Below, in pieces: positions 11,785-51,266 of a DNA stretch of 64,000 nucleotides. Position 1 is the first letter of the stretch, and the number at the start of each line of letters is the position of its first letter. This DNA comes from Gordius sp. MW1 (lineage: Eukaryota; Nematomorpha; Gordioida; Gordea; Gordiidae), in assembly GCA_964036665.1 (NCBI GenBank), contig OZ038531.1, positions 20,190,324 to 20,254,323 of the forward strand, given 5' to 3'. The notes under the pieces were generated by a model. It saw nothing but the letters and a program-made list of their open reading frames with translations. It did no database searches and had not been told where the DNA came from. The translations under genes and the position numbers were made by a program.

Positions 11785-12000
11785 AATAAATAACAAATCG
11801 CGAAAACGCATTTCTTAAACGTTCCATTCCCGGGCGCAATCATCTCGTTCGTTAATTTGTATGTTATTGTTTACAAATTATGACACGCTTTGCACTTCAT
11901 TTTTTAAATTCACCATTTTTGTTTGTTCTTTCTAATCCATATGGTATCAAATTATATGTACATTTAATCAACATTATGTGGGAATATAAAGGTATGATAA
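11785..12000 (+). repeat. Left terminal inverted repeat of the foldback-like element
   Basis: This 216-bp segment pairs with the reverse complement of 26770-26947 with only scattered mismatches. Examples are the shared blocks AACGTTCCATTCCCG and CACGCTTTGCACTTC. It ends about 48 bp upstream of the kelch-like ATG, so it occupies the gene's expected promoter or 5' UTR. It runs straight into a satellite unit that is interrupted by gypsy-1. Confidence 0.8.
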
Positions 12001-12510
12001 TAATAAATCCGCAGGTCCTCCCCCAAAAGGGAAGGACTATATCTACTTGAGGATTTTTAAAGTCCCGATTTAATATTTTATTTAATGAGTACGCAACAAA
12101 ATTATAATGAAAAAAAGGAAGAATCGAGAATGAATGCATTTTTTTAAAAAAAGGGATATATATAGCTATCGCTCATCATTATTCTTGGCACATTTCCAAG
12201 TAAAGTTTTTCTAGCTAAAGCTATGACTCAGTACATTTCCAGCAATTTAAAACTAAAACTTAAGTAACAGGGTAATAAAAAAAGGAATAGGGAAGGGGGA
12301 ATAGAAACATGATTTAACATAAACAGTAACATCATAAACAGTAGAGTAACGTCATAAACAAACGTACAGTAACGTAATAAACAGGGGTAATCTGTCGTGA
12401 CTCATTAGTCATCCGATAAATAATAATAATCGTAGCATATAAGTACATATAAGAAATAAACATACAAAAACAACAACAACAAACTAGTTTTTCCAGGGGT
12501 GAACACCACA
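12001..12510 (-). repeat. 3' LTR of gypsy-1
   Basis: A 510-bp copy of the LTR at 17505-18021, read on the minus strand from TGTGGTGTTCACC to GGATTTATTA. The element end TG...TA departs from the commoner TG...CA. The flanking GATAA lies at 11996-12000. Confidence 0.92.
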
Positions 12511-12521
12511 CCTCCCCCTTT
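12511..12521 (-). other. Polypurine tract of gypsy-1
   Basis: On the minus strand AAAGGGGGAGG lies immediately 5' of the 3' LTR. This is where a plus-strand primer is expected in LTR retrotransposons. Confidence 0.8.
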
Positions 12522-13500
12522 ATCGAGAAGTCGAAGACTTCAAGTCTGTGTTTGTTGTTATTGTATTTCTTTTCTTTCTCTCTGCGCTTTCTTTTACGTA
12601 TCGCGTCAGTTAGCAGATCTCGGATGTTGCGTGTGATGGCGTATTTTATATGTCGTCTCGCGTTCGATGGCATGTCTCATACATCGCAGGCTTTCTTTCT
12701 TTTTCACTTTATAGGATAATACCCATGTAATGATCGTTACGGAAGGATGAATATTAAACATGTACAATATTCATTACTAAACGTGTATAGTATTCATTAC
12801 AGAAGGATAATATATGTATCTCTTTTTCTTTTCGGATAATAAACGTTTATAATAATTGTTACGGAAGGATAATAATATTTTTTTTACATAATAAACGTGT
12901 AACTGTGAAGCAACAATAATTGTTACAGAAGTATAATATATATAATATGCGTATGTGTGGGGGGGGGGGGGGAAATTAGACAAACAAAAACCAATAAGCT
13001 CGTCTCTGCCCTCTAACGAGAAGTCGAAGCGGCCGTCCCATTGAGGTTCATGACTTCTAAAGCCCCCTCAATCCGGACTGCCGGTTCGGAACTCTTGGCC
13101 TATTGGTCGCCTGGGTTTTCGGGCACATCGGAGGTAGATGCCTCCTCCTGCATCCCCAGCACCTTTTACTACGGGTCATAGTTGATCCGGCCACCTGGCC
13201 GTCTCGTCGATGGTCACCCCGGCCTTGTACAGACCTGCAGGAGTCACCCCCTCAGCTGGTTGGCTGTTTCCACTTGGTCTCACCCTAGGCGTCACCCGAG
13301 GTGATGCCACAACGGGGTGCACTAGATTAATCACTCTCGCCCGCCCTGTCGGTTCCACCTCAAAGGTAATCAACAGGGGCCTCCGCGCATGGACTGGCGC
13401 CATCAATCACTTCCAGACGCACATCATACCATGCAGTAGGTATCCTCATCTATTGCAGATTATAAAAATATAAGATTTAACATTTTATATACAAAAAGTC
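12522..13500 (-). other. 3' non-coding region of gypsy-1
   Basis: About 1 kb between integrase and the 3' LTR. 12680-12960 has loosely repeated units containing GTTACGGAAGGATAAT, then a G tract at 12959-12972. 13010-13470 is markedly GC-rich compared with the rest of the window. Minus-strand open frames in the GC-rich part are short and show no domain I recognise. It may be a decayed accessory region or a further insertion. Confidence 0.5.
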
Positions 13501-13509
13501 TTTCAACTA

Positions 13510-14708
13510 TTAATTGTACAATTTAATCTGTTCCTCAGGCCTAGTTTCAATCTTATTTGTCTCTGCATTTTTAATCTTATAAATCTTTAAGCCTACCTGC
13601 TCTACTATCTCGCTTAGTACCCACCTAGGTTCCTTCAAGTAGTTCCTATACCAAACCTTCTGATTTAGCTTTAATATAGGACTATCTGACCTAGGTAGCT
13701 CTGGTTCGAGATATTGTAACAAGTCAGGCGGGTACCTCAACTTTCTGCTTAAAAATTCATAGCTAACTGAAGGACGATTAGGAAACCTTGGAGCCATATT
13801 ATGATATAATCTTAACATCCATGTACCTCCCTTCGTCTCTTTAGCTACTCTTAACCATTTTTTGACTATTCCTACATACCTCTCCACCTGTCCATTTAAG
13901 CTAGGGTGATAAGGAGGCGTTAGTAAATGGTTAATCTTAAATTCTAAACAAAAATTTTTAAATTCTACGCTTACGAAAGCCTTCCCATTATCTGTAACAA
14001 TGTAGATAGGTAATCCGTACGCGCCAAATAATTTTTTTAAAATATTTATTGTTACTCTACCTGACATGCTAAAAACGTTTCTAAATTCCGTCCAACCGGA
14101 ATATGCATCGACATTAATATAAAACGTTTCTTGTCAAGTTCGAAAAAATCAATATGTATCCTCTCCTACGGAGATTTGGGACGTGGCCATCTGGCCTTTT
14201 TAATCCTCCGCGGCATTGGTGCGTCAAGCTTACATAGCCCGCATTGCTGGACGAAGTTTTCAATGTCTTTGTTAATTTTAGGCCACCAGACATATTGTCT
14301 AGCTAGTCCCTTCATCTTAACCATCCACGCATGACCCTGATGTAAAACATCTAACACCTCTTGGCGAAGTTTACTAGGGACTACTAACCTTTCCTGTCTC
14401 TTAAGCACGTCATCTTCTAAATACATTTCGTTTAAGACATTAAAAGGTGATGGCATATTTGTGTCATCGTCCAAGCCAAGTAAAATGTTTGTAACCTGAT
14501 TTATATCAGGGTCTGCATTACTTTCGGTTATTATGTCATTTAAATCCCAAATTTTAATTATGTTTATGACCTCTCCCCCGACAATTTCGCACGATAAAGA
14601 ATCATCATCAGCTTTGATGTCATCCGCGCCCAAACGCGATAATACATCAGCTAAATGATTGTCTTCACCTTTGCAATATTTAAGAGTTAAGGTAAAATTT
14701 CCTAACAT
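13510..14708 (-). pseudogene. Gypsy-1 integrase region
   Basis: From the 5' side: the end of RNase H, a zinc-binding HHCC module (LHQGH, then CGLCK), then the D,D35E core. The core shows aspartate in HIDFF, aspartate in IVTDNGKAF and glutamate in NGQVERYVG after PYHPSLN. It inserts element cDNA into the genome when intact. Here a nonsense codon near 14149 and a one-base frameshift near 14115 separate the zinc module from the catalytic core. The last frame runs 14067-13510. Confidence 0.88.
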
Positions 14709-14723
14709 AACCAGCCAACGCTG

Positions 14724-15850
14724 TTATCTACCAGACATTAGTAGTTGGTCGTTAGCGTTTTTAAACAAAGCAACTAGAGGTTTATGATCCGTGACTACAG
14801 TAAACGATTTACCAATTAAATATTCTCGGCATCGCTGTAATCCGTACATCATTGCTAGAGCCTCCCGTTCAATAACAGAATACCGGACCTCTGTTTTATT
14901 TAACTTACGCGAAAAATATAAAATAGGGTGTTCGATATTATCCTTGACTTGACATAATGCGCCGCCGATGCCTACATCTGACGCATCGACTCTTAAAATC
15001 TGTTGCTTGTCGGGGTTGTAACACCTTAATACGGGTTTAGTTAGTAAAATATTTTTTAAATAATTAAAACTATCTGTATGCGTCTCGTCCCATTTAAATA
15101 AAATAGACTTCTTGGTCAATTCGTATAATGGTCCAGCGAATCCCATATAATTATTTATAAAGCGACTATAATAATTCATTACACCCAAAAATGACGAAAG
15201 TTCCTTTTTATTAGTTGGTATTTTAATATCTTTAATCGCCCTAACTTTGTCATACCTAGGTTGAATATTACCATCACTTAAAATATGACCTAAATATAAA
15301 ATCTGCTCTGTTCCAAAAACGCATTTCTTAGCCGAAACCTTTAATCCTTTTACTTTAATTAACTCCAGAACTTTGATTAGGCGCATATCATGTTCTTCTC
15401 TAGTTATACCAGTGACTAAAATGTCGTCTAAATAAAATATTACGTTGTCTAAATTAATAAAAATGGAAGCCATTGTTTGTTGAAAAATAGCAGCGGAAAC
15501 GCTTAAGCCGAAAGGCAATCTCTTGAATTTAAACAGTCCGGCATCAGTATTAATCGCTAAAACCCGTGAAGGCCTTTCGTCTACCTTAAGCTGCTAATAT
15601 GCACTAGCCAAATCAATTTTTGAAATATATTTAGCTCCCTGTAATCTAACAAAAATCATTTCTAATCTCGGCAGCGGGTATTTTACTTCAATAACAAATC
15701 TATTAACTGTAATTCTATAGTCAGCACAGACGTATACCGAACCGTCAGATTTCCTGACCGGTACTAAAGGTGTAGCCCATTCTTAATAATCTATTGGTTC
15801 GATCACCTCGTCTTTAAGCCAATCTTAAATTACAGAATCCATTTTATATT
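14724..15850 (-). pseudogene. Gypsy-1 reverse transcriptase and RNase H
   Basis: The open part 15518-14724 contains LPFGLSVSAAIFQQ, the catalytic FYLDDI box, the VTDHKPL motif of RNase H and an ILRVDASDVG start of the RNase H fold. The upstream part reads SDGSVYVCADYR and SKIDLASAY, broken by stops near 15594 and 15783-15788. A further in-frame stop at 14724-14726 separates RNase H from the next frame. It is typical Ty3/gypsy pol, now inactive. Confidence 0.9.
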
Positions 15851-15890
15851 TTATAATTAAAGGTAAGCGTCTAGCAGGACAAAATTTAGC

Positions 15891-16169
15891 TTCTTCTTCT
15901 TCTTCTTCTTCTTCTTCTTCTTCTTCTTCTTCTTCTTCTTCTTCTTCTTCTTCTTCTTCTTCTTCTTCTTCTTCTTCTTCTTCTTCTTCTTCTTCTTCTT
16001 CTTCTTCTTCTTCTTCTTCTTCTTCTTCTTCTTCTTCTTCTTCTTCTTCTTCTTCTTCTTCTTCTTCTTCTTCTTCTTCTTCTTCTTCTTCTTCTTCTTC
16101 TTCTTCTTCTTCTTCTTCTTCTTCTTCTTCTTCTTCTTCTTCTTCTTCTTCTTCTTCTTCTTCTTCTTC
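15891..16169 (-). repeat. (GAA)93 trinucleotide repeat inside gypsy-1 pol
   Basis: 93 uninterrupted TTC units on the plus strand, GAA on the element's coding strand, between protease and reverse transcriptase. Read from the protease frame it gives a long arginine run; read from the reverse transcriptase frame it would give glutamates. The perfect purity points to recent expansion or collapse. It is not a real protein domain. Confidence 0.95.
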
Positions 16170-16179
16170 CTATGGCGTT

Positions 16180-16827
16180 TGAATTTTCTCTAATTGAGAT
16201 CATTCTATCATTCACACAGCCCAAATTATTCTCAAAAATGTCCGAAAATGTAGCCAAAATTAATGTAATTTCTGCTGGCCATGTTGTGACAAGTTTTCCC
16301 TTTGCCCTCGGATCGACTGATTCATGGAGTGTGGATTTAATCGAAGAAATCCCGCACTGTATATCAGCGATAACATGGGGTACTTCATGGCTAGTGGACT
16401 TGGCGTCCCAGCTCTGTAAAGCACCACTGGGCAATCGCGATGCCACTATGGACTCAGCTTTAAAACTACAAATTCTATCTAAATTATCTGACTCACAAAT
16501 TCCCCACCAGTCTAATTTAGGGCCTATAACCTTTATCCATGGCCACCCCATTATGTTGTCCACGTTCTCCTTGAGTATATATAACTCTAGCTTAACCTTA
16601 TAATTATTTACTGTTACTATTACATTAATTTTACCTAATACATTAATATAAGTATTGTTAACTTGTTTAGCTAAAATATCTGCTGCCTTAAATTTTCTTA
16701 GCGGCCAATATTTTTTAAAATTACGCTGACTTGTGATTGAAATGGAAGCGCCCGTATCTATCAACATTTTAATATAAATATCATCAATATTAATCACCGC
16801 TGATGGTGTAATTGATGCTTTAAACAT
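16180..16827 (-). pseudogene. Gypsy-1 aspartic protease region
   Basis: The frame starting at 16827 contains the retropepsin active site LIDTGAS followed by SITSQ about 20 residues in, and the hydrophobic GWPWI segment further on. Retropepsins process the Gag-Pol polyprotein as homodimers. The frame continues past the protease core and runs into the GAA repeat. No stop occurs within it. Confidence 0.85.
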
Positions 16828-16877
16828 ATTAATCGAACCGTCGCGGCGCCATTTCTCACATTCAATGTTCGAAAAGA

Positions 16878-17367
16878 CTAGTCAGTCATGCGCGGCTTGC
16901 CTATCAGCAACCGCGTCTCCCTGACAGACATACTTGACACACCTATCCGTACCGTTATAATCGTATTGATTATGAAAACTACAACAATTAGGTTTAAACG
17001 GACTCTGATAATTGTTCTGATTACCTCGGTCAGTGTTCTGAAAACCGTTATTTTTAGCATAAAAATTCGGAGTCTTATAATTTCTGTTTTTGTAACTACC
17101 GGGCTAATTGAAATCGGGATTACTAATATCACCTCCTATGGTTATAATTAGGTCTCTCTTTCGGACAGTCAAAACTCTTATGTCCTCTCCTATTGCACTT
17201 AAAACACGTATTGTTTTTAAAACAAATACCTTCTCAACTCTCCTAACTTTATAGAGAATATAAATTAATATTAATGAAAAACAAATTAAAGCGACTAACA
17301 TCTTATCCGCGCATAGATAATTGAAAAAATTAATAACGATTGAGGGTTGTGAAGAACGAAAAAACAT
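16878..17367 (-). pseudogene. Gypsy-1 nucleocapsid remnant with one zinc knuckle
   Basis: At 17165-17206 the minus strand encodes a CX2CX4HX4C knuckle (CFKCNRRGHKSFDC). It is followed by an asparagine-rich tail spread over several frames down to the protease. No capsid or matrix coding sequence is present between this remnant and the 5' LTR, so gag has been largely deleted. Confidence 0.75.
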
Positions 17368-17439
17368 TATTAAAATAAAACGACGAAATTTTTGATCTTT
17401 TTAATTATGTATTTTTGAAATTGAAATACGCTAAATGAG

Positions 17440-17503
17440 CCGCAGGCTTCAAACCTGTAGTCGCTTAATGGCGAAGTGGTTCGATTCCACCTTTCCGGCG
17501 CCA
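17440..17503 (+). other. Captured selenocysteine tRNA 3' part at the gypsy-1 primer-binding site
   Basis: Read on the plus strand, this segment has a 5-bp anticodon stem GCAGG/CCTGT around loop CTTCAAA (anticodon TCA). Next come a long variable arm (TCGC/GCGA stem), a T arm GTGGTTCGATTCCAC, the 3' acceptor strand, and CCA at 17501-17503. Long variable arm plus anticodon TCA are hallmarks of tRNA-Sec. The CCA is added after transcription in eukaryotes, so this is a copy of a mature tRNA 3' end, not a tRNA gene. It abuts the LTR with a 1-nt spacer. On the element strand it starts TGGCGCCGGAAAGG, the expected PBS. The 5' part of the tRNA is absent. Confidence 0.85.
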
Positions 17504-17504
17504 C

Positions 17505-18021
17505 TAATAAATCCGCAGGTCCTCCCCCATAAGGGAAGGACTATATCTACTTGAGGATTTTTGAAGTCCCGATTTAATATTTTATTTAATGACTACGCAA
17601 CACAAAATAAAATTATAATGAAAAAAAGGAAGAATCGAGAATGAATGCATTTTTTAAAAAAAAGGGATATATATAGCTATCGCTCATCATTTTGGCACAT
17701 TTCCAAGTAAAGTTTTTCTAGCTCAAGCTATGACTCAGTACATTTCCAGCAATTTAAAACTAGAACTTGAGTTACAGGGTATTAAAAAAAAGGAATAGGG
17801 AAGGGGGAATAGACATGATTTAACATAAACAGGCGTATAGTAACATCATAAACAGGAGTAGAGTAACGTCATAAACAAACGTACAGTAACGTAATAAACA
17901 GGGGTAATTTGTCGTGACTCATTAGTCATCCGATAAATAATAATAATCGTAGCATATAAGTAAGAAATAAACAAACAAAAACAACAACAAAAAACTAGTT
18001 TTTCCAGGGGTGAACACCACA
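17505..18021 (-). repeat. 5' LTR of gypsy-1
   Basis: A 517-bp LTR matching 12001-12510, with a 7-bp net length difference and many substitutions. The flanking target duplication GATAA lies at 18022-18026. Confidence 0.92.
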
Positions 18022-18267
18022 GATAAAAATATATATAATAACTATTTTCCTAGATAAATTATTTGAATTTTTAATCTCTTCAAACAATATTTGTACATTT
18101 AATCAACATTTTGTGGCAACATAAGGTACGATAAAAATATATATATTAACTATTTTCCTAGATAAATTATTTTGAATTTTTAATCTCTTCAAACACGATT
18201 TGTACATTTAATCAACATTTTGTGGCAACATAAAGGTATGATAAAAATATATATATTAACTAGTTTC
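18022..18267 (+). repeat. Satellite units, left arm of the foldback-like element
   Basis: About two and a quarter units of ~110 bp, each containing TTAACTATTTTCCTAGATAA, then TCTCTTCAAACA and CATTTAATCAACATTTTG. The third unit is cut by gypsy-2 at 18267 and resumes at 22636. The same units occur inverted at 26416-26800. Confidence 0.88.
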
Positions 18268-18454
18268 TGAAAAGAATCGTTTATTCGTAATTCCAGGATG
18301 TGTTTTAGAACAAAGTTTATTATTCTAATTTGATCATATGATATATAATATATATATATATATATATGTGCACAAGGAATATCGAACTAAACGAAATTAA
18401 TAATAACATGTATAACACAAATTATAAAACATAACATAAAGTACAATCATAACA
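18268..18454 (-). repeat. 3' LTR of gypsy-2
   Basis: 187 bp, on the minus strand beginning TGTTATGATTG and ending GATTCTTTTCA. It contains an AT microsatellite longer than that in the other LTR. Confidence 0.93.
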
Positions 18455-18467
18455 TTTCCCCTCGCCG
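18455..18467 (-). other. Polypurine tract of gypsy-2
   Basis: On the minus strand CGGCGAGGGGAAA directly precedes the 3' LTR, the usual place for the plus-strand primer. Confidence 0.7.
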
Positions 18468-18477
18468 TCTATAAGAC

Positions 18478-19650
18478 TTAAATTTCTTCTATCAACCGGC
18501 TCGGGGGTTTTCTATTCCTTGTAGATTTCCTCTGACTGATATGACATTCTGGATCTTCCACGTTAGAGGTCGGAGTTGATGCGCTATCGTCAGAGCTATC
18601 TTCCGTTTCCTGGGACCTGTTGGTATCCATGGCACACGAACGATCTCTCAACTGATCGCTATGTTTCCGCATGTTTTTACTCTGTGTTTCCACTAAGTAT
18701 GACCATGGACCGTTGCGTTTTATTATCTTCCTCGTTCTCCAACCATTATTCACTTCATTTTTCACCCATACTAATTGGCCAGGAATGAATTCTCTATTCT
18801 CCGTCTGCGCATCGTGTCTCTTTTCCTGTTCATCAATTTTTTGTTCCATGAATTTATTTTGAGTTGGACGTACCAAGTCCATCGAAGTTTTAATATTTCT
18901 TCCAATTAACGCCTTTGATGGTGACCTTCCGGTAGACGAATGTTTGCTGATGCGATAACTGGTGAGAACCTCTATCATACATTCATCCGGATCTGTATTG
19001 TATTCGCGTGCGGCAGCATAGCGAGATTTCAAAGTCCTAATGTCTCTTTCGACAAGACCATTGATTTTGGGATGATATGGAGTTGCTTTATACTTGATAT
19101 GGTATTTATCGCAAAAACACTTCATTTCCAAGCTTCGAAACTGAGGCCCGTTGTCTGTCACTATTTGCTTAGGAACTCCCCACCTAGCAAACCAATCTCG
19201 CAGTTTCTTCAACGTAACTTCAATTGTCGAACTTCGCAGTAACGCAGATTCGATCCATTTGGAATAAGAATCTATCGCCACCAGCCAATAATAACCATCC
19301 ACTGGCCTCGCATAATCTATGTGTATCCTTTTCCATGAATTTTCTGTTATGTTCTAAGAATAAAGGGGAACTTCAGGTCGATTACATCTATTCTTCTGAC
19401 ACCTAACACATGTCCGAACGTGTATTTCGATATCCTTATCCAAGTGTGGCCAATACACGTATAACCTGGCGATGGATTGCATTGAGTTAATCCCTGGATG
19501 ACCCCTATGAATAATAGTCAAAACTTGTTGTCTAGGGCGCGTTGGAACAACTATCAATCCGTTAATGTAAATAACTCCCTTGTCTTGTTCCATTTCATTC
19601 TTTCTATCGAGAAATACCTGCAATTCCTTGCTAACCGCATTTTTGTCCAT
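18478..19650 (-). pseudogene. Gypsy-2 integrase
   Basis: The first part (19650-19354) has the HHCC zinc module (HRGHPG, then CVRCQK). The second (19302-18478) has the catalytic core with aspartate in HIDYA, aspartate in IVTDNGPQF and glutamate in INGLVERDI, followed by a basic C-terminal tail with a chromodomain-free end rich in S, T and R. Both parts are in one frame, separated only by a stop at 19354-19356. It is otherwise close to intact. Confidence 0.9.
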
Positions 19651-19772
19651 TGGCCAACCTTTGTCTATAAATCTTTTTAATATTCTTAAATTCGAATCAT
19701 TCTGTGATTCCCTAATTAAAACTTTTCTGTAAGGTGCAAATCTTGCAAATTAAGGAGACGGATATGATAAGT

Positions 19773-20246
19773 TTAATTACTTTTATAAAAATTGACTTTA
19801 TCCGCATAAGACGCCGGTAACGGTAAGCTTGATAATGCATCAGCACATACATTCTTCTTGCCAGGTATGTATTCAATAGTATAGTCATAAGCAGACATCT
19901 TCCATGCCCACCTAACTAACCGATTGTTGCTTATCTTCGGTAAATCTCGTGTGGCTCCAAATATTCTTTCAAGAGGTTTATGATCGGTCCTTAGAATAAA
20001 TCTACGGCCTAGTAGGTATGTATGAAATTTTTCCATATCAAAAACTAAGGCTTTTGCTTCTCTGTCAATTGGTGAATATTGTTTCTCTCCATCAATTAGC
20101 GTTCTTGACGCATATGCGATTGGTCTTTTATTATTTTTAATTAAATGATAGAGTACAGCTCCAAACCCCATTTCTGAAGCATCGCATTCAAGAATTAATG
20201 GAAGTTCATTCGAGTAGGGTACTAAGGTCGATTGGTCTGATAACAA
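19773..20246 (-). pseudogene. Gypsy-2 RNase H
   Basis: The open frame shows the RNase H opening LILECDASEMGFGAVLY, the glutamate in IDREAKAL, the RTDHKPL motif and the ADALSSLP end, all in the order usual for gypsy elements. It is separated from the reverse transcriptase by about 290 bp with frameshifts and stops. Confidence 0.88.
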
Positions 20247-20535
20247 AGCTTTTACCTTTTAAAAAACTGACTCTTCCGTTTGAGACCACACCCATTTGGC
20301 TTTGACGCTCGTCAATTTATGTAATGGTGCCATTATACCATGTAAATGTGGAATAAATTTCTCGTGGTAGTTAATTAAGCTTAAAAAAGTTCTTAATTAT
20401 TTAACATTCTTTGGAGATGGGCTATTTTTAATAGCTCGCACTTTATCCGTCGAAGGATGAATACCATTACAACAAAGGTATGCCCAAAAAAAGTAATAGA
20501 TTCTTTTAAAAATTCGACCTTAGAAAAATGCGCCT

Positions 20536-21168
20536 TCATACCCACCGATTGTAATTTATTAAGCACCTTTTTACATTGTATACATGACCCTGGTAGATTT
20601 TGCCCGTGATAATGATATCATCTAAATAAATTCCCGTTTGATTGCAATCACTCAATATACTTTCCATGTATCTCTGAAAAATCAAAGGCGCACAAGAGAA
20701 CCCAAATGGCATCCGTTTGTACCTAAAAAAACCGATATGTGTGGAAATAGTTAGTAATTCCTGACATTCTTCAGCTAATGGTAGCTGCAAATATGCATCT
20801 CGCAAGTCGATTTTGGTATATAAGTATCCATCTGGAATTTTAGTTGCGATATCGTCAAAAGTTGGAATGATATGATAATCATTATGAACGAAAGGATTTA
20901 AGGTTACCTTGAAATCCGCGCAAATTCTTATTTCACCATTTTTCTTCCTTACATTTACTATGGGAGTGCTCCATGTAATTTTGCTAACACCAGGATCTAC
21001 CTTTTCTATAATACCTGCATGAATTAACCTGCTAAGTTCAAGCTCGACAGGCTTGCGTAAAGGAAAGGGAACCCTTCTTGCCGGAATCGCGATTGGTTCT
21101 GCATCATCTAGTAATATGATTTTTACGGAAAATCCATTAACTTGAGTCGGAGTTTCATTAAACACCAA
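20536..21168 (-). pseudogene. Gypsy-2 reverse transcriptase
   Basis: Contains VPFPLRKPVE, then ICADFKVTLN, the catalytic KIDLRDAYLQLPL, MPFGFSCAPLIFQR and GIYLDDII boxes. The frame ends at 20536, and the thumb and connection regions downstream are frameshifted. It copies element RNA to DNA when intact. Confidence 0.9.
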
Positions 21169-21174
21169 TGGAAA

Positions 21175-21474
21175 TTAGTTATCAAGGTTAATTAAGGCTC
21201 CGTTTTGCTGTAATTTTTCGCCGATTTTATGTATTTTGACTTCGCTCGGTATTTGGAATCCGAATTTTATTATCCACGGCAACCCAAATAATGGTACATC
21301 ATCCGATTTTGCAACAACAGCCGAGAGATAATGTGAGATGTTTCCCATTTCGACTACCATATGTGTTTTCCCCAATATTTCTACTGGTTGATTACCATAA
21401 GCCTTTTGAATCGTACACCAGTGTAACTTCGGTTTTCCTAACAGTTGCCATATTCTAGCATTAATTACTGAGGT
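21175..21474 (-). pseudogene. Gypsy-2 protease region
   Basis: A retropepsin-like active-site motif of the form YDMGA ends the gag frame at about 21478 and is followed directly by a stop. The sequence then continues in protease-like fashion to VPLFGLPWI. The DxGA spelling departs from the commoner DTGA but is seen in K02A2.6-type elements (from memory). Confidence 0.65.
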
Positions 21475-22400
21475 TTAAGCCCCCATGTCGTAATCCATTT
21501 GAATGGAATGTCCATTCAACTTAACCGTAATTGTGGCTCGCTTAGCCCGTTGTCCGAGACGTTTTATAGAATCAGACGATTCATAATCTATGACTCGATT
21601 TAGTGTGCTGCGGCAGACGGCAAAGTGTCCTTTCTTGTTGCATTTGTAGCACACAGCATTGAATGCTGGGCAACGATATTTTTGATGCACCTTTTGGCAT
21701 CTAAAGCACTTTGATGTTGTACCGTATACTTTCTTTGTAGGATCGGGCTGTTGAATATGAGTGAATGTTTTATGTTTCATTTTATAAAGCATTTCATCTT
21801 TTCCTTCTTGTGTTTCCATTTTAATTTTATCGAGCATTTCATCTTTTTCATCTTTTGTTTCCATTTCCGCCCTCTCCATTGTAATTGCCTTGTTAACTAT
21901 TCTATCCAAGGTTAAAGGATTTCCATGTTTGTCTAAAGTATCAGGATACTTGCTGCGTAGTTCCAATTCCAACTTTTTCAATTTGCATGCATATATGAAA
22001 TGGTCACGGCAACGTTCGTCAATATCCGATTTATAGTTGCACTTGCTAATACAAGTTTTTATTCTTTTTATCAATTCTAATATACTTTCACCGTTTTGTG
22101 TTGTAATGCTCAATAGGTACAGTTTGGGGGGGGGGGGGGTTGATATTTCTGATATAATAATTTCTCAATATCTTTCCACTTGGCATCTTTCAATAAAGTG
22201 GGATATGATAGTTGTCTTAATTCTTTAATAATTTCTAGCCCTATGAAAGCAAGCACAACTTTTTTCTTTATTATATGTGTGGGCTCGATTCCTTTAATTC
22301 TAAAATCGATTCCACATTGAATAAGTAATCCTCTATGGAATGTAAATCCGGATTGAACTAGCTAAATGGCTTTTAGCTAGTAAGGATTCCTCCATAATCA
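21475..22400 (-). pseudogene. Gypsy-2 gag with two zinc knuckles
   Basis: The main frame (22113-21475) contains capsid-like helices and two knuckles, CFRCQKVHQKYRC and CYKCNKKGHFAVC. The N-terminal part (FNPDLHSIEDYL and onward) lies in other frames up to about 22400. A 14-nt G tract at 22126-22139, C on the coding strand, marks one frame change. Confidence 0.8.
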
Positions 22401-22441
22401 ATGTTTCCTAAAATCAATTTATTTAGGTACTTGTTCTTTTA

Positions 22442-22454
22442 TCCTAGTCGCCAC
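22442..22454 (-). other. Primer-binding site of gypsy-2
   Basis: On the minus strand, after a 1-nt spacer from the 5' LTR, TGGCGACTAGGA begins with the TGG complement of a tRNA CCA end. I cannot name the tRNA with confidence. Confidence 0.6.
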
Positions 22455-22635
22455 TGAAAAGAATCGTTTATTCGTAATTCCAGGATGTGTTTTAGAACCA
22501 AGTTTATTATTCTAATTTGATCATATGATATATAATATATATATATATGTGCACAAGGAATATCGAACTAAACGAAATTAATAATAACGCGTATAACACA
22601 AATTATAAAACATAACATAAAGTACAATCATAACA
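22455..22635 (-). repeat. 5' LTR of gypsy-2
   Basis: 181 bp, nearly identical to 18268-18454 apart from the AT microsatellite length and a few substitutions. Confidence 0.93.
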
Positions 22636-22985
22636 GTTTCCTATATATATTATTTTGAATTTTTAATCTCTTTAAACAAGATTTGTACATTTAATCAACA
22701 TTTTGTGGCAATATAAAGGTATGATAAAAATATATATTAACTATTTTTTTGATTTATATTTTTGAAAATTATTATACTTTTTATAAATTCATGATTTTTT
22801 TTACTTTATTAAATATTACTTTCTGATATAAAGGAGTATTAAAAGTATACATATTAACTATTTTTTTGATTTATATTTTTGAAAATTATTATTTTTATAA
22901 ATTCATCATTTTTTTTACTTTATTAAATATTACTTTCTGATATAAAGGTATATTAAATATATATATTAACTATTTTCTTAGGTCA
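22636..22985 (+). repeat. Satellite units, continuation of the left arm
   Basis: First the remainder of the unit interrupted by gypsy-2. Then come two copies of a related ~115-bp unit with TTTTTTGATTTATATTTTTG and ACTTTATTAAATATTACTTT. Confidence 0.8.
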
Positions 22986-40700: not shown

Positions 40701-43700
40701 TAGTATGACTATTGCCTCCCAAGGAATCTTCATATATTCACAGAAAAGTGTAAGTATAAACCGTATAAACATATATTTCATTGACAAATATATTTTACAA
40801 AATTCTTAAAATTCAAGGTTATTGGCTTATTTTCTTATAATCAGATTTGTACAAATTTATTCTAACTTGAACATTTTAAGGATCAAAATTAAACTTTTTA
40901 CAAAATCCATAGCTTAAAAAGGGCCCAGACTAGTGTTGTAAAAACGGGTGGTTTTGTTTGGTCGACCCTAACGGTCGATTCTGGTCTGTTGCTTCAAATT
41001 TCGACTAAGCCTAGTGGTCGTCTAAGAAAAATAGACCAAAAATTTTTTGGTCTGTTTTTGTTTACTCAACTCAAACCAAAAGCCGACCAAACAAAACCCA
41101 GCCGTTTTTACAACACTACTATGCAACAATTTTACACTGTTAATTAAAACTAATTAATATAGTGTGTATGTTTGTACAAGTTTGAAATAAAAACCTTGTA
41201 GTATACGAGTCAGTTTAGAATCCCGATAAGGTGCAAATGAATTTTCGCCCTTGCGTTTTGCATCTTCAGATAGGGCTGTTATCACATTACCCAACACCAG
41301 GAGGCCTTTATTAATGTTGACGCCTAAGAAATTTCAACAAAATATAAATATTATTCCAAATTGGTAAAAATGCTAGAGATTTAAGCAATAAACTTCATGA
41401 CCAGGTTTGATTAAAAATACGAGGCTAACAAATATATTAATACTTGGATTTACTTCCCTACCTCCTCCTGGCTATGTGATATATACACAAACCTAAAACA
41501 CTATAATTATTTGTTTCTTTAAAGAATTGCCTTCATTTGCAGATCGAAATTTGAAAATTAAAAATCTACCTTCAATCTGATCATTTAAGCAGATATCAAT
41601 ATTACCTTCTTTAAAACGTTCTCCCTCCGCCATAGTTTTTTTGACCCTCTCAGATCCTGCTAGATCGACGAAATGAAGTTTACTCTGACTCACCATCGAT
41701 TCACTGCAAGTATAAAATTATTTATAAAAATTATCCACTATAAGAAATTAAAAATCATTAAATTTTTTATAAAGTTTTACATACAAATAGATAATATAAG
41801 TGAAAACTACAAAAAAATATCATCATTTACAAGTTATTTAGGGCTAACACAGTGTACATATTAGTGTTGTAAAAACGGCTAGGTTTTGTTTGGTCAACCC
41901 ATAGACTTAAAACCTTTGTTTAACTAAGACTAAGGGTCGACTGGTCTGTTTTTCAAATTTCGACTATGCCTAAACTAAGAAAAATAGGTTGAAAAACCTT
42001 TAGTTTGTTTATATTTAGGTGACTAAAACAGTACATATATTTATAAAAACAAAGTAAAGTTTTACATCAATATTAATAATTTCATTTATAAAATCGAGAC
42101 ATCCTTTTTTTGAACTTACTCTACAAGTTTTTCTATGCTAATGGAAAATATTGCGTGTGACCGACTAGAAGTTAAATTCATAGCAGTAGAGGCTGTACTT
42201 CTAACAGCTGAACCCATTTCTAAATAAGCTAAGGTTTGGGCTAAATTTTCTACATGCATTTCTTTGATCCCTGTAACCTAATATAGGTTTTAAAAAAAAT
42301 ATATTAATAAGATAATATATAAATAATAAAAATAATGTTCTTTTTTGTTTAAAATTGTAAAATAAGTTTACTTTAATTCCGTGAATAGGATCTTCTCTAA
42401 TGCCAATCGATTCTTTATCCTTATTCATTTTATCGGTCAGAAGGTCTATAATATCTTCTTTGTATATCTCTATGAAGGAGACCAATATTTTAAAATGAGT
42501 TTTAGACATATTTTGGTTGTCACCCTCGTCATTTTGCTTGTAATTGGTGATATACTTAAAAATTTCATTGATTGTTTTGGGAATTATTCCAATATTTTCA
42601 TTATTTTCAATATCATTTTCCGATATGGCAAAACAATTAGTGCCCATGGTGTATGTTTTTCCTGAGCCCGTTTGTCCGTATGCCAAAATAGTAATGTTGT
42701 ATCCTAATTTATAAAAAATAATATTTATAGATAAAACCTGAAAACTGAATATTGTTTGAGAGTTTTTAATTTATTAATATTTATGTATGTATATAATATA
42801 AATTTGGGTTGCATTTATTACTATAAAAATGCTATTGGATATGAAAAGTAAATTATAAATATTGTTGCAAGCATCTATTATTAATGCCAATTATTTATTC
42901 TTTTTATAAATATTTTAAAATTTTTATATAAAATAAGTTTATGAAAATTAATCTTTTATATTTTTTCTTGTCATTTTTAATACATTAAAATTTAAAATAT
43001 ATATAAATCTAATCAATAAGACAACTCTAAATTATACATGTGAATTTAATATGGTATAGCATAAAATGAAAAAATGATTGAAAAAAACCTATATAACATA
43101 AAAACAGTCGCCTTGAAAGCCTTTATATTTGTAGATTTAAATTATTTTGATTGTCTCGTAAGATATCTTTATAAATAAAATTATAGCTAATTAAAAAATG
43201 GTGATATTATTCTTTTCATCTCATTTAAAATAAAGCAAATTACACAATTCATATTGAAGCTAATTCCAAATTGTTATATATTTATAATAAAATTAGAAAA
43301 ACTTAAATTTAGTCATTCTCTAAAACTCCATTTTATGGAAAAATTTGGGAGTTATTTTAATTACTAATAAAGGTTATTACCACTTGTTCCAACAACATAT
43401 ATGAAGGAAGAATTCATATTAAACGTAAAAAAATATGCATTCAAAATTTAGATGTTATTGCAAATATCTCTACTCAATCAAAAAAGTATTATATTGTAAA
43501 GCAGTGGCGTACGCAAGGGGATGGTTTTGGGGTTCAAACCCCCCCCCCCCTGAGGACAAAATTTTATAAAATTTATGTAATGCAAATAAAATCTAATAAG
43601 TAAGATAGCGGCTCAATTTTACTTTACTAAATAAATGAATATCTTAAAAAATTATTTGTATTGATAAGTAACAGAAAATTCAATTCCTAAATCTTTTTAT

Positions 43701-45544: not shown

Positions 45545-46380
45545 ATGGCCTACCACCTACTTTCTATAACCACCACCTCTGTCACCACGACAGCCCCTGC
45601 TTTTACAACGTCCAACCCAACCCTGGAACCCCCCTTTACCGAACCACGGGACGAGGAAAACGACTCCCACTTCGACTCCAAGGGGCATCCAATTTCTTGG
45701 ACTACCAAGGATGACCCGGGCACGCCTTTAGCATCCAATACAGTGGAATGGATTGCAAAGGAGCTCAAGTCTATAAGGAATGATGTCATATCCTTACGAC
45801 GAGCAAAAGAACAAGAATCCCATGTTAAAATAAGCAGCAATGCTCCCACATGGGCCCCCCCCCATATATTCCCCCCTTGCTGCAGCCACCGATTTTCAAT
45901 CCACCACGGCAGGCACCAACCATGTCATCACAATACAACCCCACCAGTTTTACCTTAACCCATGATGAGCTCAACGCCATTATCACAAGGGAAGTGGAAA
46001 AGAAGGTCTCGGGAATTGAGCAAACAGGCACTGACCTATTAAAACAAAGACTCAAGGGCCTCAAGGAGGCAGATGAGAAAAACAAAACCATCCCGCTGTA
46101 TCAAAAACATGAAATAGATTTTCTCCTGGAACTAGGAGAAGCATGGGATGATTCAACTAAAGCCACGGATGTATTCTCAGAAAGGATTCGAACAATTGCT
46201 ATGGCCACATACTATGGGTGGCAAGTGGTAACAGGGAAAACCAAAGATTGGGCCGTTAAAAATGGATTCGGCCAAATGGGAGAGCAGATTAGTTCCTTTC
46301 GTCCGAACTATCAACCACCTATGCCAAGGAAGGCGCCTTTCAACAGAAATAAAAGAGCGCCTGAGGCTAGGAAGGACTGA
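45545..46380 (+). pseudogene. Gag-like region of the compact retroelement, copy 1
   Basis: The first frame 45545-45958 is rich in T, P and S, with a short coiled-coil-like stretch (EWIAKELKSIRNDVISLRRA). The second frame 45850-46380 continues through proline-rich sequence into a helical region (THDELNAIITREVEKKVSG). The change of frame falls at a G3C9 tract (45852-45863). No zinc knuckle is visible. The function is inferred only from position ahead of the reverse transcriptase. Confidence 0.55.
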
Positions 46381-46520
46381 GCGACAGTACGTGCGGACGG
46401 CGGCGGCGACCCTCGGCAGTGGTGATAACCCGCCGAGCATCAATGGGGGACGGACCGCTGTAACATGGCTGAACAATTACGTTCAACTAGCCCGGAACAT
46501 CGCTATCAACTCTGTCTCCC

Positions 46521-47618
46521 TTGATGATGGACCGGATGAAGACACCCCTCCACTGGATCACCCTTCCGCCTGAGCACACTGAGGTGCCGGAATTCCTCAA
46601 TGGCCCACTTCATGATATCGGATTAGATAGCGAGCCGATCCCCATTATAAACGAACCTTCCAATATCCCCAACTTCCCCTCGTTCTGGGACATTAGTGAT
46701 GGATACCGAATCCCATTTACATCACCACTGGATTTGGCCACAACATTACTACGTCCCCATCATTCGCAATCCCTATTTACTTTCAATGTCGCTACCAAGG
46801 GGTTTAAACCCAAAATAAATCGACGAGTACTCGCTAATAACAACTGGCAATACCTTGTCCCCAGGTATGTCAGACCTATACCCCGTGTCCATAGAGACCT
46901 TGTTGCGCAAGTCACAAATTCACACATTGTAAGACGCTACACTAACACAATCCCATCCCCAATGTATTTTATACCAAAAAGTGATAGTTCCCCCCGAATG
47001 ATCGCTGATCTTTCCATCATATCCAAAAATTTTGTTTCATATCCCTTTTCGCTTCGCTCTATCCCTCTAATTGCAAGACCTCTGGCAGAAGCAAACTACG
47101 CTTGTAAAATAGACATGAAGAGCGCATTCTTCGCCATTCAACTTAACCCTTCCATATCACACCTTTTTGGTTTTAAAACAGGCAGACATAAATATGCATA
47201 TAAAGTCCTCCCCATGGGGGCATCCTTCTCTCCCTATGTGTTACAGCAAATCATGCTGGATCTATGCGAAAAATCCGTAACAACATGCCGTTACAATGTA
47301 TATCTCGATGATATACTGATTTATGGGTCCACAGCTGAATCAGTCCGAACAAACACGAGAGCCTTCCTTAAACTAGCACGGCAATGGAATTTGTCAATAA
47401 ACATACAAAAATCAGAAACCACGCCACAACGTATGCTAAACTATCTAGGAATCTACATTAACCTAGTCCAGCACCAACTTTCAATCAACGCCAAATTCTT
47501 GAGAAAAATTGACGCAGCAATAATGATCATATCCCACTTTATAACAACCAATCAGAAACCACATCCTATTGTCGCACAAACCTGTCTCGGAATACTTACC
47601 CCTATACATACATGGTAA
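46521..47618 (+). pseudogene. Reverse transcriptase of the compact retroelement
   Basis: 365 open codons with the RT fingers-palm motifs in order: SSPRMIADLS, ACKIDMKSAFFAIQL (first catalytic aspartate), KVLPMGASFSPYVLQQ, and NVYLDDILIYG (catalytic YLDD), then NYLGIYI. The frame ends at 47618 and the connection continues in another frame (47612-47822). The upstream boundary with Gag overlaps a third short frame (46262-46573). The catalytic residues are intact, but the polyprotein is not continuous. Confidence 0.85.
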
Positions 47619-47699
47619 CGGGCTGGACAAAGTTCTTCTCCCCAGCATACAATATTTGTCTGAGCAGTACCAATATCCCATTCAATACTCGACTGTTAG

Positions 47700-48204
47700 T
47701 ACAAAAAATGGTGGCCCTAAAAGCCCTAATGAACTTCCCACTTCCAATGGTAACTACATATGACAGTGATGCCTATGGAGACGCATCAACAAGCCACATA
47801 GGTATTTATTTCATGACGCATTAGCAATGTTCAGATGTCAAAACTACATCCCGACAATCAACCTCTTAGAACTATTAGCTATTCCTATAGCATACTTAAG
47901 GGTATTAGTAGAGTACCCCAACATGACACCAGTAATCTACACAGACTCCAAAACAGCATTCTACATTTTCAAAAAAGGCTCCGCACACGCACCACACCTC
48001 GAAGGTGCATTCACCAAGATAGCCTTATGCTTAGGAATAAACCACGTGTTAAGAATAAAAAATGGCCTCAAATGGGTACCAACCGATAGAAACATGGCTG
48101 ACTTACCATCTAGAGAATTCTTCAACGACGAATATATGGTCAGCTTAATATCACAGAAAGCACACCTGAAACCCTCGTCCCCGACGAAACTTACCAATAA
48201 ATGA
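47700..48204 (+). pseudogene. RNase H of the compact retroelement
   Basis: The first acidic motif TYDSDAYGDAS lies in the frame ending at 47822. The rest lies in the frame 47827-48204: glutamate in INLLELLAI, aspartate in VIYTDSKTAF, and the final aspartate in DRNMADLPSRE. All four expected acidic positions are present, but a stop and frame change separate the first from the others. Confidence 0.75.
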
Positions 48205-48354
48205 AAATCACACCTAGAACTACAACCGGTTTGCTAAAGCTTAAAGACCGTACATTAGTCTAAGAAATTTACTATAATTCAAGACTAGTAATATACAAAT
48301 TATTCTTGTCTTTTGCGCTGCTCTACGTGTCGTAACGCCCATATCCATAATTTT

Positions 48355-49980
48355 CATTTATTGTCGCATATAATATCACCCATAATGCATATTTACATAA
48401 GTGTGTAATGTTCTAAAATAAAATAAAAAGGAGAATAAGGAGAAGGCGTATCGTGGTCAATCGTTATGTTCTAGGGCTTCCGTAACTTCAGGATTTGGGG
48501 TGTTACTGTCATATTTGCAAAACCTCGGTTATATTCGGGGGGAAGTTTAGACAAGGATTAAATTCATGAATTTTATTCCGTTTATTTCCGAATCGATAAT
48601 AAGTATAGACAATAATTTATTCGATCTTTTCATTCGGTATAAGTCGCGTCAAATTATAATTATCGTAAGGATTTTAGGAATTTCGCAGGGGTTCCCCCCA
48701 ACGGGGAAATAACTAGTGAGGAACACTGATTAGTTTAGTAATTTATTAATGAATTCAGTGTATTCATGGGCTTTTATATCGTTAAGGTTTTCTAACCCCG
48801 GCCTGTTCATGTTATTATTAGATTTACTTTTCCTTATATGGAAAAACTATTAAATTTTACTTATCTACTTTTACATCTCTTATTATATTGACTACTCCTT
48901 ATATACAAAAACTATTAAGTTTAACTTATCTATTTTTACATCTTTCGAACCTTTCCGGTCTTATTATAATCACCATGAGGACACAATATTCAATCCCCTA
49001 CACAAATATCTCCACTCTTAATACACCTCCTCCCTTAATCTTAACTTTTACTTCTACTAAAACATCATTCCCCTATTCTAATTTTGACAGCTATTCCACC
49101 TAAAGCATTCCCCTCTTTAGATATCTTGGTAATAAACATTGGTAATAAACCATTAAAAATATGCTTTAGATATCTTGGTAATAAACATTGGTAATAAACA
49201 ATTAAAAGCATGCCTTATTCTATCTTTGGCATTCCTCACCCATTAATTAATACTTAACTTTTCCATCACTACTTAAATGACTACTAAGGCAAGGGGGTGG
49301 GGTGAGGTATTTAGGGTTCGTCGTTACGGATACGACACCTCCCTTTTTTTTCTTTTTTTTAAGACGGGATTCGCACATGCCAAGTCGCGAGTAAATGGAA
49401 TCATACAAATTGGGTTTACAAGATGCGTAAAAATCGTGGTATTATATAATGCATATCTTCCGTTTCTGTCCTGTCATTTCATCCTCTGTTAGAGATACCC
49501 CTCGGATATTCAGGATTGACTAAAAGGCACGTTGTGACTCAGTTATCGACCCAATAAACGACTTCCTTTCTATGTAACTTGCTTTCTGCAAACAATAATG
49601 AAAATTTGTCCCACATGTCATCAACCCTCTTATTAAAAATTATCTCTAATTAATTAAATTAGTACCCTTAATAAATTCAAACCATTTAAATCTAGTTTGT
49701 ATTCTCTAGCCCTAATAAGTTCTCATTTTTGCCAGGTGCAAAATTAAATTTTTACTGGTATGGTTCATGGTTAAGCGCGCCTCATATTGCTTTAACAAGC
49801 GCACCTTTTCACTCTTTATACATGTACCTCTAAATTAGATACTGTATGATCCACCAATACCCTTTGTAAAATAACTGTTTTTGCTTATGATCTTTATGTA
49901 AGAACTCGTATCAAATATTAAGGTTAAAAGGCCATTATTTAATTATATAATATTTCAATGGTCGGTTACCTAAAATTACA
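48355..49980. other. Non-coding spacer between the two retroelement copies
   Basis: No gene supported. Two small tandem duplications are visible: a ~63-bp unit near 48838-48945 (ACTTATCTACTTTTACATCT repeated with changes) and a 49-bp unit at 49115-49163 and 49164-49212. The region is AT-rich with short poly-T runs. Confidence 0.5.
49115..49212 (+). repeat. 49-bp tandem duplication
   Basis: Two adjacent units, each with TAGATATCTTGGTAATAAAC and ending near ATTAAAA, differ at a few positions. It is a simple local duplication. Confidence 0.8.
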
Positions 49981-49989
49981 TTTATAACG

Positions 49990-51266
49990 TTTAACCACCA
50001 CCTCTGTCACCACGACAGCCCCTGCTTTTACAACGTCCAACCCAACCCTGGAACCCCCCTTTACCGAACCACGGGACGAGGAAAACGACTCCCACTTCGA
50101 CTCCAAGGGGCATCCAATTTCTTGGACGACTCCAAGGGGCATCCAATTTCTTGGACTACCAAGGATGACCCGGGCGCGCCACTAGCATCCAATACAGTGG
50201 AATGGATTGCAAAGGAGCTCAAGTCTATAAGGAATGATGTCATATCCTTACGACGAGCAAAAGAACAAGAATCCCATGTTAAAATAAGCAGCAATGCTCC
50301 CACATGCCCCCCCCCCCATATATTCCCCCCTTGCTGCAGCCACCGATTTTCAATCCACCACGGCAGGCACCTTCCATGTCATCACAATACAACCCCACCA
50401 CTTTTACCTTAACCCATGATGAGCTCAACGCCATTATCACAAGGGAAGTGGAAAAAAAGGTCTCGGGAATTAAGCAAACAGGCACTGACCTATTAAAACA
50501 AAGACTCAAGGGCCTCAAGGAGGCAGATGAGAAAAACAAAACCATCCCGCTGTATCAAAAACATGAAATAGATTTTCTCCTGGAACTAGGAGAAGCATGG
50601 GATGATCCAACTAAAGCCACGGATGTATTCTCAGAAAGGATTCGAACAACTGCTATGGCCACATACTATGGGTGGCAAGTGGTAACAGGGAAAACCAAAG
50701 ATTGGGCCGTTAAAAATGGATTCGGCCAAATGGGAGAGCAGATTAGTTCCTTTCGTCCGAACTATCAACCACCTATGCCAAGGAAGGCGCCTTTCAACAG
50801 AAATAAAGGGGCGCCTGAGGCTAGGAAGGACTGAGCGACAGTACGTGCGGACGGCGGCGGCGACCCTCGGCAGTGGTGATAACCCGCCGAGCATCAATGG
50901 GGGACGGACCGCTCTAACATGGCTGAACAATTACGTTTAACTAGCCCGGAGCATCGCTATCAACTCTGTCTCCCTTGATGATGGACCGGATGAAGGGACC
51001 CCTCCACTCGATCACCCTTCTACGTCGCCGCCTGAGCACACTGAGGTGCCGGAATTCCTCAATGGCCCACTTCATGATATCGGATTAGATAGCGAGCCGA
51101 TCCCCATTATAAACGAACCTTCCAATATCCCCAACTTCCCCGCGTTCTGGGACATTAGTGATGGAAACCGAATCCCATTTACATCACCACTGGATTTGGC
51201 CACAACATTACTACGTCCCCATCATTCGCAATCCCTATTTACTTTCAATGTCGCTACCAAGGGGCA
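49990..51266 (+). mobile_element. Compact retroelement, copy 2 (RT deleted)
   Basis: Matches 45559-46800 of copy 1 with few substitutions, from ACCACCACCTCTGTCACC to TTCAATGTCGCTACCAAGGG. It then diverges before the reverse transcriptase. It has the same frame change at a C tract (50307-50317) as copy 1. The 5' part is missing and the RT and RNase H are absent, so it cannot move on its own. Confidence 0.85.
50101..50158 (+). repeat. 29-bp tandem duplication in retroelement copy 2
   Basis: The unit CTCCAAGGGGCATCCAATTT plus nine more bases occurs twice in a row. Copy 1 has a single unit at the matching place, so the duplication is specific to copy 2. Confidence 0.85.

Follow-up and report, generated by a model that had tools for sequence, protein, structure and literature searches.

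The primer-binding site (PBS) of an LTR retrotransposon in the genome of Gordius sp. MW1 contains a copy of the 3' part of the host's selenocysteine tRNA (tRNA-Sec), and this tract is, with a probability of roughly 85%, a scar of reverse transcription: read-through of the primer tRNA, followed by a template switch that gave a hybrid of two element families (F4 and X) and by normal integration. The read-through of the primer tRNA by the reverse transcriptase is in itself very likely, and the joining step probably took place by template switching within particles rather than by nuclear end joining. Similar copies, of variable length and with several classes of partner, are found elsewhere in the genome, both of tRNA-Sec and of tRNA-Leu(CAA). 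The window, i.e. the whole 64-kb stretch of DNA analysed, corresponds to C5:20190324-20254323 in a genome of 211.8 Mb and 12 contigs.

The features of the element are collected in Table 1. The Pfam matches on the minus strand follow the order protease, reverse transcriptase (RT)/RNase H and integrase, i.e. the PR-RT-RNase H-IN order of Ty3/gypsy elements, and the structural marks of this group (LTRs, PBS, a polypurine tract recognised by position only and the 5-bp target-site duplication, TSD, GATAA) are also present; judged by these sequence features, the element is a Ty3/gypsy-type LTR retrotransposon. The process is read from old copies: the two LTRs of the window differ by 2.4% (12 substitutions in 498 ungapped columns, with 31 gap columns), and no new insertion was seen. 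A long triplet run (window 15890-16170) lies in the pol region of the element and is missing from the X copies compared.

Table 1. Coordinates of the retrotransposon and its tRNA-derived tract in the window
Feature	Position	Strand	Remarks
TSD GATAA, left	11996..12000	.	Flanks the LTR pair
3' LTR	12001..12510	-	510 nt
Presumed polypurine tract, GATAAAGGGGGAGG in element sense	12511..12524	-	Position and composition only
Integrase core piece	13510..14130	-	PF00665
Integrase zinc-binding piece	14166..14720	-	PF17921
Reverse transcriptase end and RNase H	14724..15590	-	PF00078, PF17917, PF17919
Protease piece	16300..16878	-	PF00077, E 4.6e-4, 20.9 of 20.7 bits
Leader of pol-bearing family X	17250..17441	-	Matches to other X copies
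tRNA-Sec 3' part copy	17442..17503	+	62 nt, 5' side of anticodon stem through CCA
Acceptor end CCGGCGCCA	17495..17503	+	Complement TGGCGCCGG is the 9-nt PBS core of other copies
Lone base separating LTR and PBS	17504	.	Not present at the outer end of the 3' LTR
5' LTR, TGTGGTG...ATTTATTA	17505..18021	-	517 nt
TSD GATAA, right	18022..18026	.	Flanks the LTR pair

Elsewhere in the window, a second LTR element with repeated LTR-like pieces lies at 18045-22966; its PBS-like TGGCGACTAGG looks short, and no long tRNA copy was seen there by eye. Two similar units about 4.45 kb apart (45567-51264), with an RT-like ORF, appear DIRS-like by eye, while a kinesin-like exon on the minus strand (42201-42770, also by eye) is likely to belong to a host gene. 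Finally, a large inverted repeat with arms of 286 and 238 nt (92-96%) is found at 59384-60815.

In the sense of the element, the PBS is the complement of 17442-17503, read downward from 17503; the tract is antisense within the element, as a PBS requires, and lies a single base from the 5' LTR. Compared with the host tRNA-Sec gene to which a CCA is added, it differs at one base and agrees at the other 61 of 62, and it includes the UCA anticodon and the variable arm, which together identify it as tRNA-Sec. As a CCA-bearing antisense tRNA copy which adjoins U5 and crosses position 58, it has the form of a read-through product. Since an exact search of the genome with its last 17 nt (the CCA included) gave 48 places, against 0 for the reversed control, the tract is not due to chance. 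No whole tRNA was found by ARAGORN in the 64-kb window and the CCA lies at the LTR, so that a tRNA-Sec gene or a SINE in the window was dropped. The earlier note on this DNA had described 64 nt of tRNA-Sec at a gypsy PBS (17440..17503), which is a real observation, although the tract starts 2 nt later and measures 62 nt. The covariance-model check which it suggested (Rfam RF01852) did call tRNA-Sec, at 17423-17495 with 37.2 bits (E 5.2e-6), but below the gathering score of 47 bits; the true 5' half of the tRNA is missing here, and this score is that of a truncated tract, the source gene reaching 78.9 bits.

This gene, intact, was found at C1:17842328-17842413, without a CCA, with a TATA-like run upstream and with T residues downstream. 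Its presence rules out a loss of tRNA-Sec by the host, and the suggestion that the copy might record a lost host tRNA was therefore not borne out; the idea that the source was a mature tRNA-Sec is upheld by the CCA, present in the copy and absent from the gene. The search of the genome with the tRNA-Sec model gave 16 places, with three besides the gene above the cut-off (L011, L021 and L025) and 12 below it, seven of the latter being read; these three have the CCA and an LTR-like end, and so are copies of the same kind as the window tract.

The tRNA-Sec copies were compiled from the window and from 54 of the 57 fetched loci (L009-L065; L063-L065 yielded none) as 61 rows, from which the gene (L023) and three repeats (L037, L053 and the second L036) were removed. 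The 57 remaining junction rows stand for fewer events, many of them having a join in common, as in the 35-nt class. The copies measure from 19 to 90 nt, two of them reaching the first base of the tRNA, and include 3 rows at 19-20 nt, 15 at 27-31, 10 at 32-37, 13 at 57-65 and 2 complete; these lengths count only the ungapped stretch, a small indel shortening L014 (19 nt) and L044 (24 nt), and the true ends at 19-20 are those of L031 and L040 only.

Different classes of sequence are joined to the far end of the tRNA copies. Class a consists of leaders joined at a common sequence, in the 30- and 35-nt classes (L030, L032, L036, L051). In class b, the partner is an inverted U5 end, forming palindromes of the type LTR-tRNA-LTR' (L013, L018, L024, L025, L028 and L042) or joining different LTR groups (L047, a two-family version of the palindrome, and L054). 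At L013, L018, L024 and L047 the U5 end bears one extra T before the tRNA, which is the base facing A76; L012 has two, the inverted junction of L028 has none, and L025, L042 and L054 are ambiguous. The RNase H of HIV-1 leaves the terminal A of the tRNA (A76) on the cDNA, and the extra T at U5 fits an unprocessed cDNA end. Class c is represented by L020, in which a polypurine-tract end in sense orientation is joined to the tRNA copy, class d by an LTR in direct orientation (L009, L026), and class e by element-internal points (the window, L015, L043, L046 and L062). In nine rows the sequence upstream of the tRNA had no match among the fetched sequences, and some others match only at a distance.

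Furthermore, read-through copies of tRNA-Leu(CAA) were found at L081-L119 and at L014 (4049-4108, minus strand), where a 60-nt copy faces the tRNA-Sec copy at a common GTCTGG. The 37 rows obtained were reduced to 31 copies by removing six repeats (L098, L111, L112, L119 and the second sides of L103 and L110). The five tRNA-Leu(CAA) genes read all have A58, a 20-nt intron and no CCA, and the intron is absent from all but two of the 31 copies. Of the 28 copy ends that could be measured, 15 lie at 46-50 nt and 6 at 49 nt, where G37 would be the next base to be copied. With the CCA, the 3' exon measures exactly 49 nt, and it begins with the base at end 49; owing to this coincidence, the ends fit a block by a methyl group at G37 as well as a template that was a cut or half tRNA. 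The second option, with a 3' half or a cut precursor as template in place of G37 methylation, is a serious possibility, if a somewhat less than even one: it draws on the exact 49 nt and on the six ends found there, three of which (L089, L104, L107) precede an A and allow another reading, but nine of the 15 ends at 46-50 nt are not at 49, and L014, L099, L101 and L102 run through G37 in spliced form. At L104, the copy stops short of G37, and its partner, which is unexplained, is a run of about 20 A.

The tRNA-Leu copies also bear a mark at position 58. Of the 31 copies, fetched with a query carrying the changed base and thereby favouring changed copies, 24 have C opposite position 58, and the change is always to this same base (24/24); of the other seven, six are clean and unchanged, and in L100 a one-base gap falls in this stretch. 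At the other tRNA-Leu positions the changes amount to a maximum of three each (1.8% overall). L115, which has no row, adds one more copy in which the base is changed, with a gap of 4 nt. When position 58 was left free in the search, by a 29-place pattern allowing any base there, 99 places were obtained with up to two mismatches, often at the last bases, and these count as places rather than independent events; one is a probable gene, some 98 copies thus cross 58, and G for A (C in the complement) was found at 83 of the 99. It seems likely that m1A58 caused this change. A-to-inosine editing or an unseen gene with G58 would be the alternative, and an unlikely one: inosine would also give one base only, as observed, and we know of no editing at tRNA position 58, while all five genes have A58 and the 27 places found with a 35-nt gene stretch (up to one mismatch) are, by coordinates, four genes and 23 fetched copies, the fifth gene being L085 and a gene with more than one mismatch in the stretch escaping the search. 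Moreover, m1A58 is a conserved modification, according to the accessible part of PMC13191261.

Among 100 listed of the 132 17-nt tRNA-Leu sites, the 29-place pattern is reached by 64 but not by the other 36, some of which may have stopped near position 58. The two intron-containing copies (L087 and L103) carry the change at 58 and pass G37, as would be expected if m1A58 is made before splicing and m1G37 after it. In contrast to tRNA-Leu, none of the 55 tRNA-Sec rows crossing position 58 is changed there (24/31 against 0/55, Fisher P 2e-15, with rows that are not all independent and the 31 coming from the changed query). The tRNA-Sec primers that were copied would, somewhat more probably than otherwise, have lacked m1A58, and read-through itself may select unmodified molecules. 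It had been proposed that the reverse transcriptase read past a modified A58; copying beyond 58 is supported, but the modification of A58 in tRNA-Sec is doubtful in view of these unchanged rows.

The native PBS of these elements is short and has two parts. A search for the core, a 10-nt spacer and a T-arm box gave 37 places, 18 of them native (with a TGGCGCCGG-like core, 0-1 mismatch), 18 with CTTCGCCGG ahead of the identical spacer, and one other. The CTTCGCCGG class has the pattern expected from a 35-nt tRNA copy joined at CGCCG, which is common to the variable arm and the PBS, the tRNA copy preceding the join having been read directly at L014, L030 and L051 only. The T-arm box, a 13-nt complement (AATCGAACCACTT), is found in tandem after the PBS, with seven units in L078, and also in L032 and L036. 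An acceptor-stem site with a separate T-arm complement, which defines a bipartite PBS of the Ty1/Ty3 type at the sequence level, was found at 18 of the 37 places; core, spacer and box appear to resemble a Ty1-like site, although a longer tRNA copy that had decayed would give the same picture. The idea that nearly all tRNA-Sec sites are extended was discarded as an artefact of the 17-nt query, the core being 9 nt.

Five other loci of the LTR family of the window (F4) were read, two more matches possibly with a PBS (C3:1842959 and C6:12437167) lying outside this count; the 9-nt core is present in all five, without change at L079 and with mutations at L075, L076, L077/L080 and L078, and is followed by spacer and T-arm box in all but L076, and none has a long tract. 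The sole other F4 copy with a long tract among the loci read, L020, carries 53 nt joined to another partner. Moreover, inside a single LTR group of ten rows (named by its first bases after the CCA), the tRNA copy varies from 27 to 65 nt. These three observations make it highly unlikely that the long PBS is an inherited, functional primer-binding site of the family extended to about 60 nt, even though some extended sites are common to several copies (the CTTCGCCGG join at 18 places, L034/L037, L052/L053 and L036). The earlier note had treated the capture as a property of Gypsy-1, which is incomplete, as many similar copies exist elsewhere and the tract is not simply the family's own PBS; it had also held that unrelated short PBSs in other copies would speak against the capture, and these PBSs are indeed short, yet they correspond to the acceptor end of the same tRNA.

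Beyond the tract, the window element continues with the leader of family X, which has 25 other matches in the genome. Only two X copies, L067 and L068, span the join of the window; they track its leader to 17438 and 17444, continue for about 520-540 nt to a tRNA-Leu-type PBS and are mutually different just past the join. A search with the 3' end of the element (LTR terminus, polypurine tract and inner flank) gave 47 matches, 40 of 243 candidates being scored. Among the matches listed, the long ones other than the window begin no more than 15 nt inside the LTR terminus, and the F4 LTR is therefore not common to them; LTR and tract of F4 are joined in just two short matches (C6:7131592 and C3:8264387, 75-77 nt), again among the matches listed. 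The window element is probably an F4 LTR with its tRNA-Sec copy joined to an X leader.

As regards integration, 5-bp TSDs enclose the tRNA-bearing insertions of the window (GATAA), L015 (AATAC), L022 (ATAAC) and L024 (GATAT); a TSD was looked for and not found at L009, L013, L018 and L025, and L019, L026, L027 and L028 are ambiguous. Some junctions without a TSD may have formed or entered by another route. In most tRNA-Sec rows the CCA lies directly at an LTR-like end, and the sequences after it fall into at least eight alignable LTR-like groups, an LTR pair being seen for some only. Self-primed reverse transcription of a free tRNA, with independent integration beside a provirus, is very improbable, slightly more so than an inherited site: in the case reported in the accessible part of PMC12220202 a CCA-bearing tRNA copy adjoins the provirus end too, but here the CCA is joined to U5 at the position of the PBS, inside a provirus enclosed by a single TSD pair, and the PBS cores of the elements themselves correspond to these tRNAs. 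Least probable of all are changes to the DNA that followed integration, whether by gene conversion, by end joining or by a tRNA pseudogene or tRNA-derived SINE inserting beside the LTRs; these would suit the four copies without a TSD, but not the CCA directly at the LTR-like end in most rows, the TSDs around four insertions, a position-58 change absent from the tRNA-Leu genes found and copies without intron in 29 of 31 cases, nor, for a SINE, post-CCA sequences that differ among groups with no common SINE body.

In the preferred reading, that of a reverse-transcription scar, mature tRNA-Sec would have been the primer for the minus strand of an element with the F4 LTR. The plus strand, starting from the polypurine tract and copying U3-R-U5, would have continued into the tRNA while this was still on the minus strand, passing position 58 and the anticodon and copying 62 nt. 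In place of the transfer at the short PBS, the end of this strand would have switched templates to an internal point of the X leader, the partner presumably being the unfinished end of a co-packaged minus strand of the tRNA-Leu-primed family X; no common base was seen at the join. The hybrid would then have integrated normally, and the process appears to have been repeated many times in this genome, on tRNA-Sec and on tRNA-Leu.

Related phenomena have been described in other systems. In HIV-1, the accessible part of PMC13191261 reports that the plus strand passes A58 when m1A58 is missing and proceeds to the 5' end of the tRNA if this is unmodified, that the modification at position 37 is a further possible stop, and that with tRNA-Lys3 the longest products and those ending at 37 are inactive as templates. 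The likeness lies in a plus strand that enters the primer tRNA beyond position 58, whereas here read-through products of both tRNA-Sec and tRNA-Leu became part of the inherited genome. Moreover, a tRNA-Gly between the LTRs of MMLV in a circle (Colicelli and Goff) and HIV variants with 63-65 nt of tRNA-Asp or tRNA-Glu are recounted in the portion available of PMC12220202, which itself describes a tRNA-Gly copy adjoining an HIV provirus; the tRNA-Gly copies bear the CCA or lie between LTRs, with a few 5' bases missing. All of these are, as here, near-complete reverse-transcribed tRNAs in proviral or viral DNA, but the MMLV and HIV cases are single laboratory events, in contrast to dozens of natural copies with several partner classes.

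As far as the accessible text of PMC5371799 goes, the PBS of Ty1 and Ty3 is bipartite, with a short acceptor-stem site and a separate T-arm contact, and in the Ty3 model a plus strand copying 12 nt of the tRNA is not transferred, so that the PBS is not renewed from the tRNA. The acceptor-stem core with a separate T-arm box is alike in the present elements, though known here from sequence alone; the tRNA is tRNA-Sec instead of initiator Met, the box is separated from the core by 10 nt and is present seven-fold in L078, and, unlike in the Ty3 model, strands that had copied tRNA did enter the genome. In the endogenous retroviruses studied in PMC7472051, PBS changes do not match modified tRNA positions, according to the part of that source available. 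A genome-wide record of read-through with modification marks was looked for in the open-access literature, most subscription journals being outside this scope, and no report was found. The mechanism is known in kind; novelty, within this literature, seems to lie in its scale, in tRNA-Sec as primer, in the classes of partner and in the mark at position 58.

Whether this genome is a natural archive of tRNA modification is a question on which we would give even odds: each copy would record the state of one primer molecule, with tRNA-Leu(CAA) primers that bore m1A58, unspliced precursors included, and were often blocked at G37, and with read-through tRNA-Sec molecules without m1A58, read-through and switching being a route to new elements. 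Copying beyond position 58, which in HIV-1 is what the modification prevents, has left here many heritable copies, so that the stops, errors and template switches of the reverse transcriptase can be read from the genome. If this is true, primer read-through with template switching would yield new non-autonomous and cross-family elements, each with a longer perfect PBS; and, if the position-58 mark holds, any genome with elements of this kind would allow past tRNA modification to be tested from its DNA.
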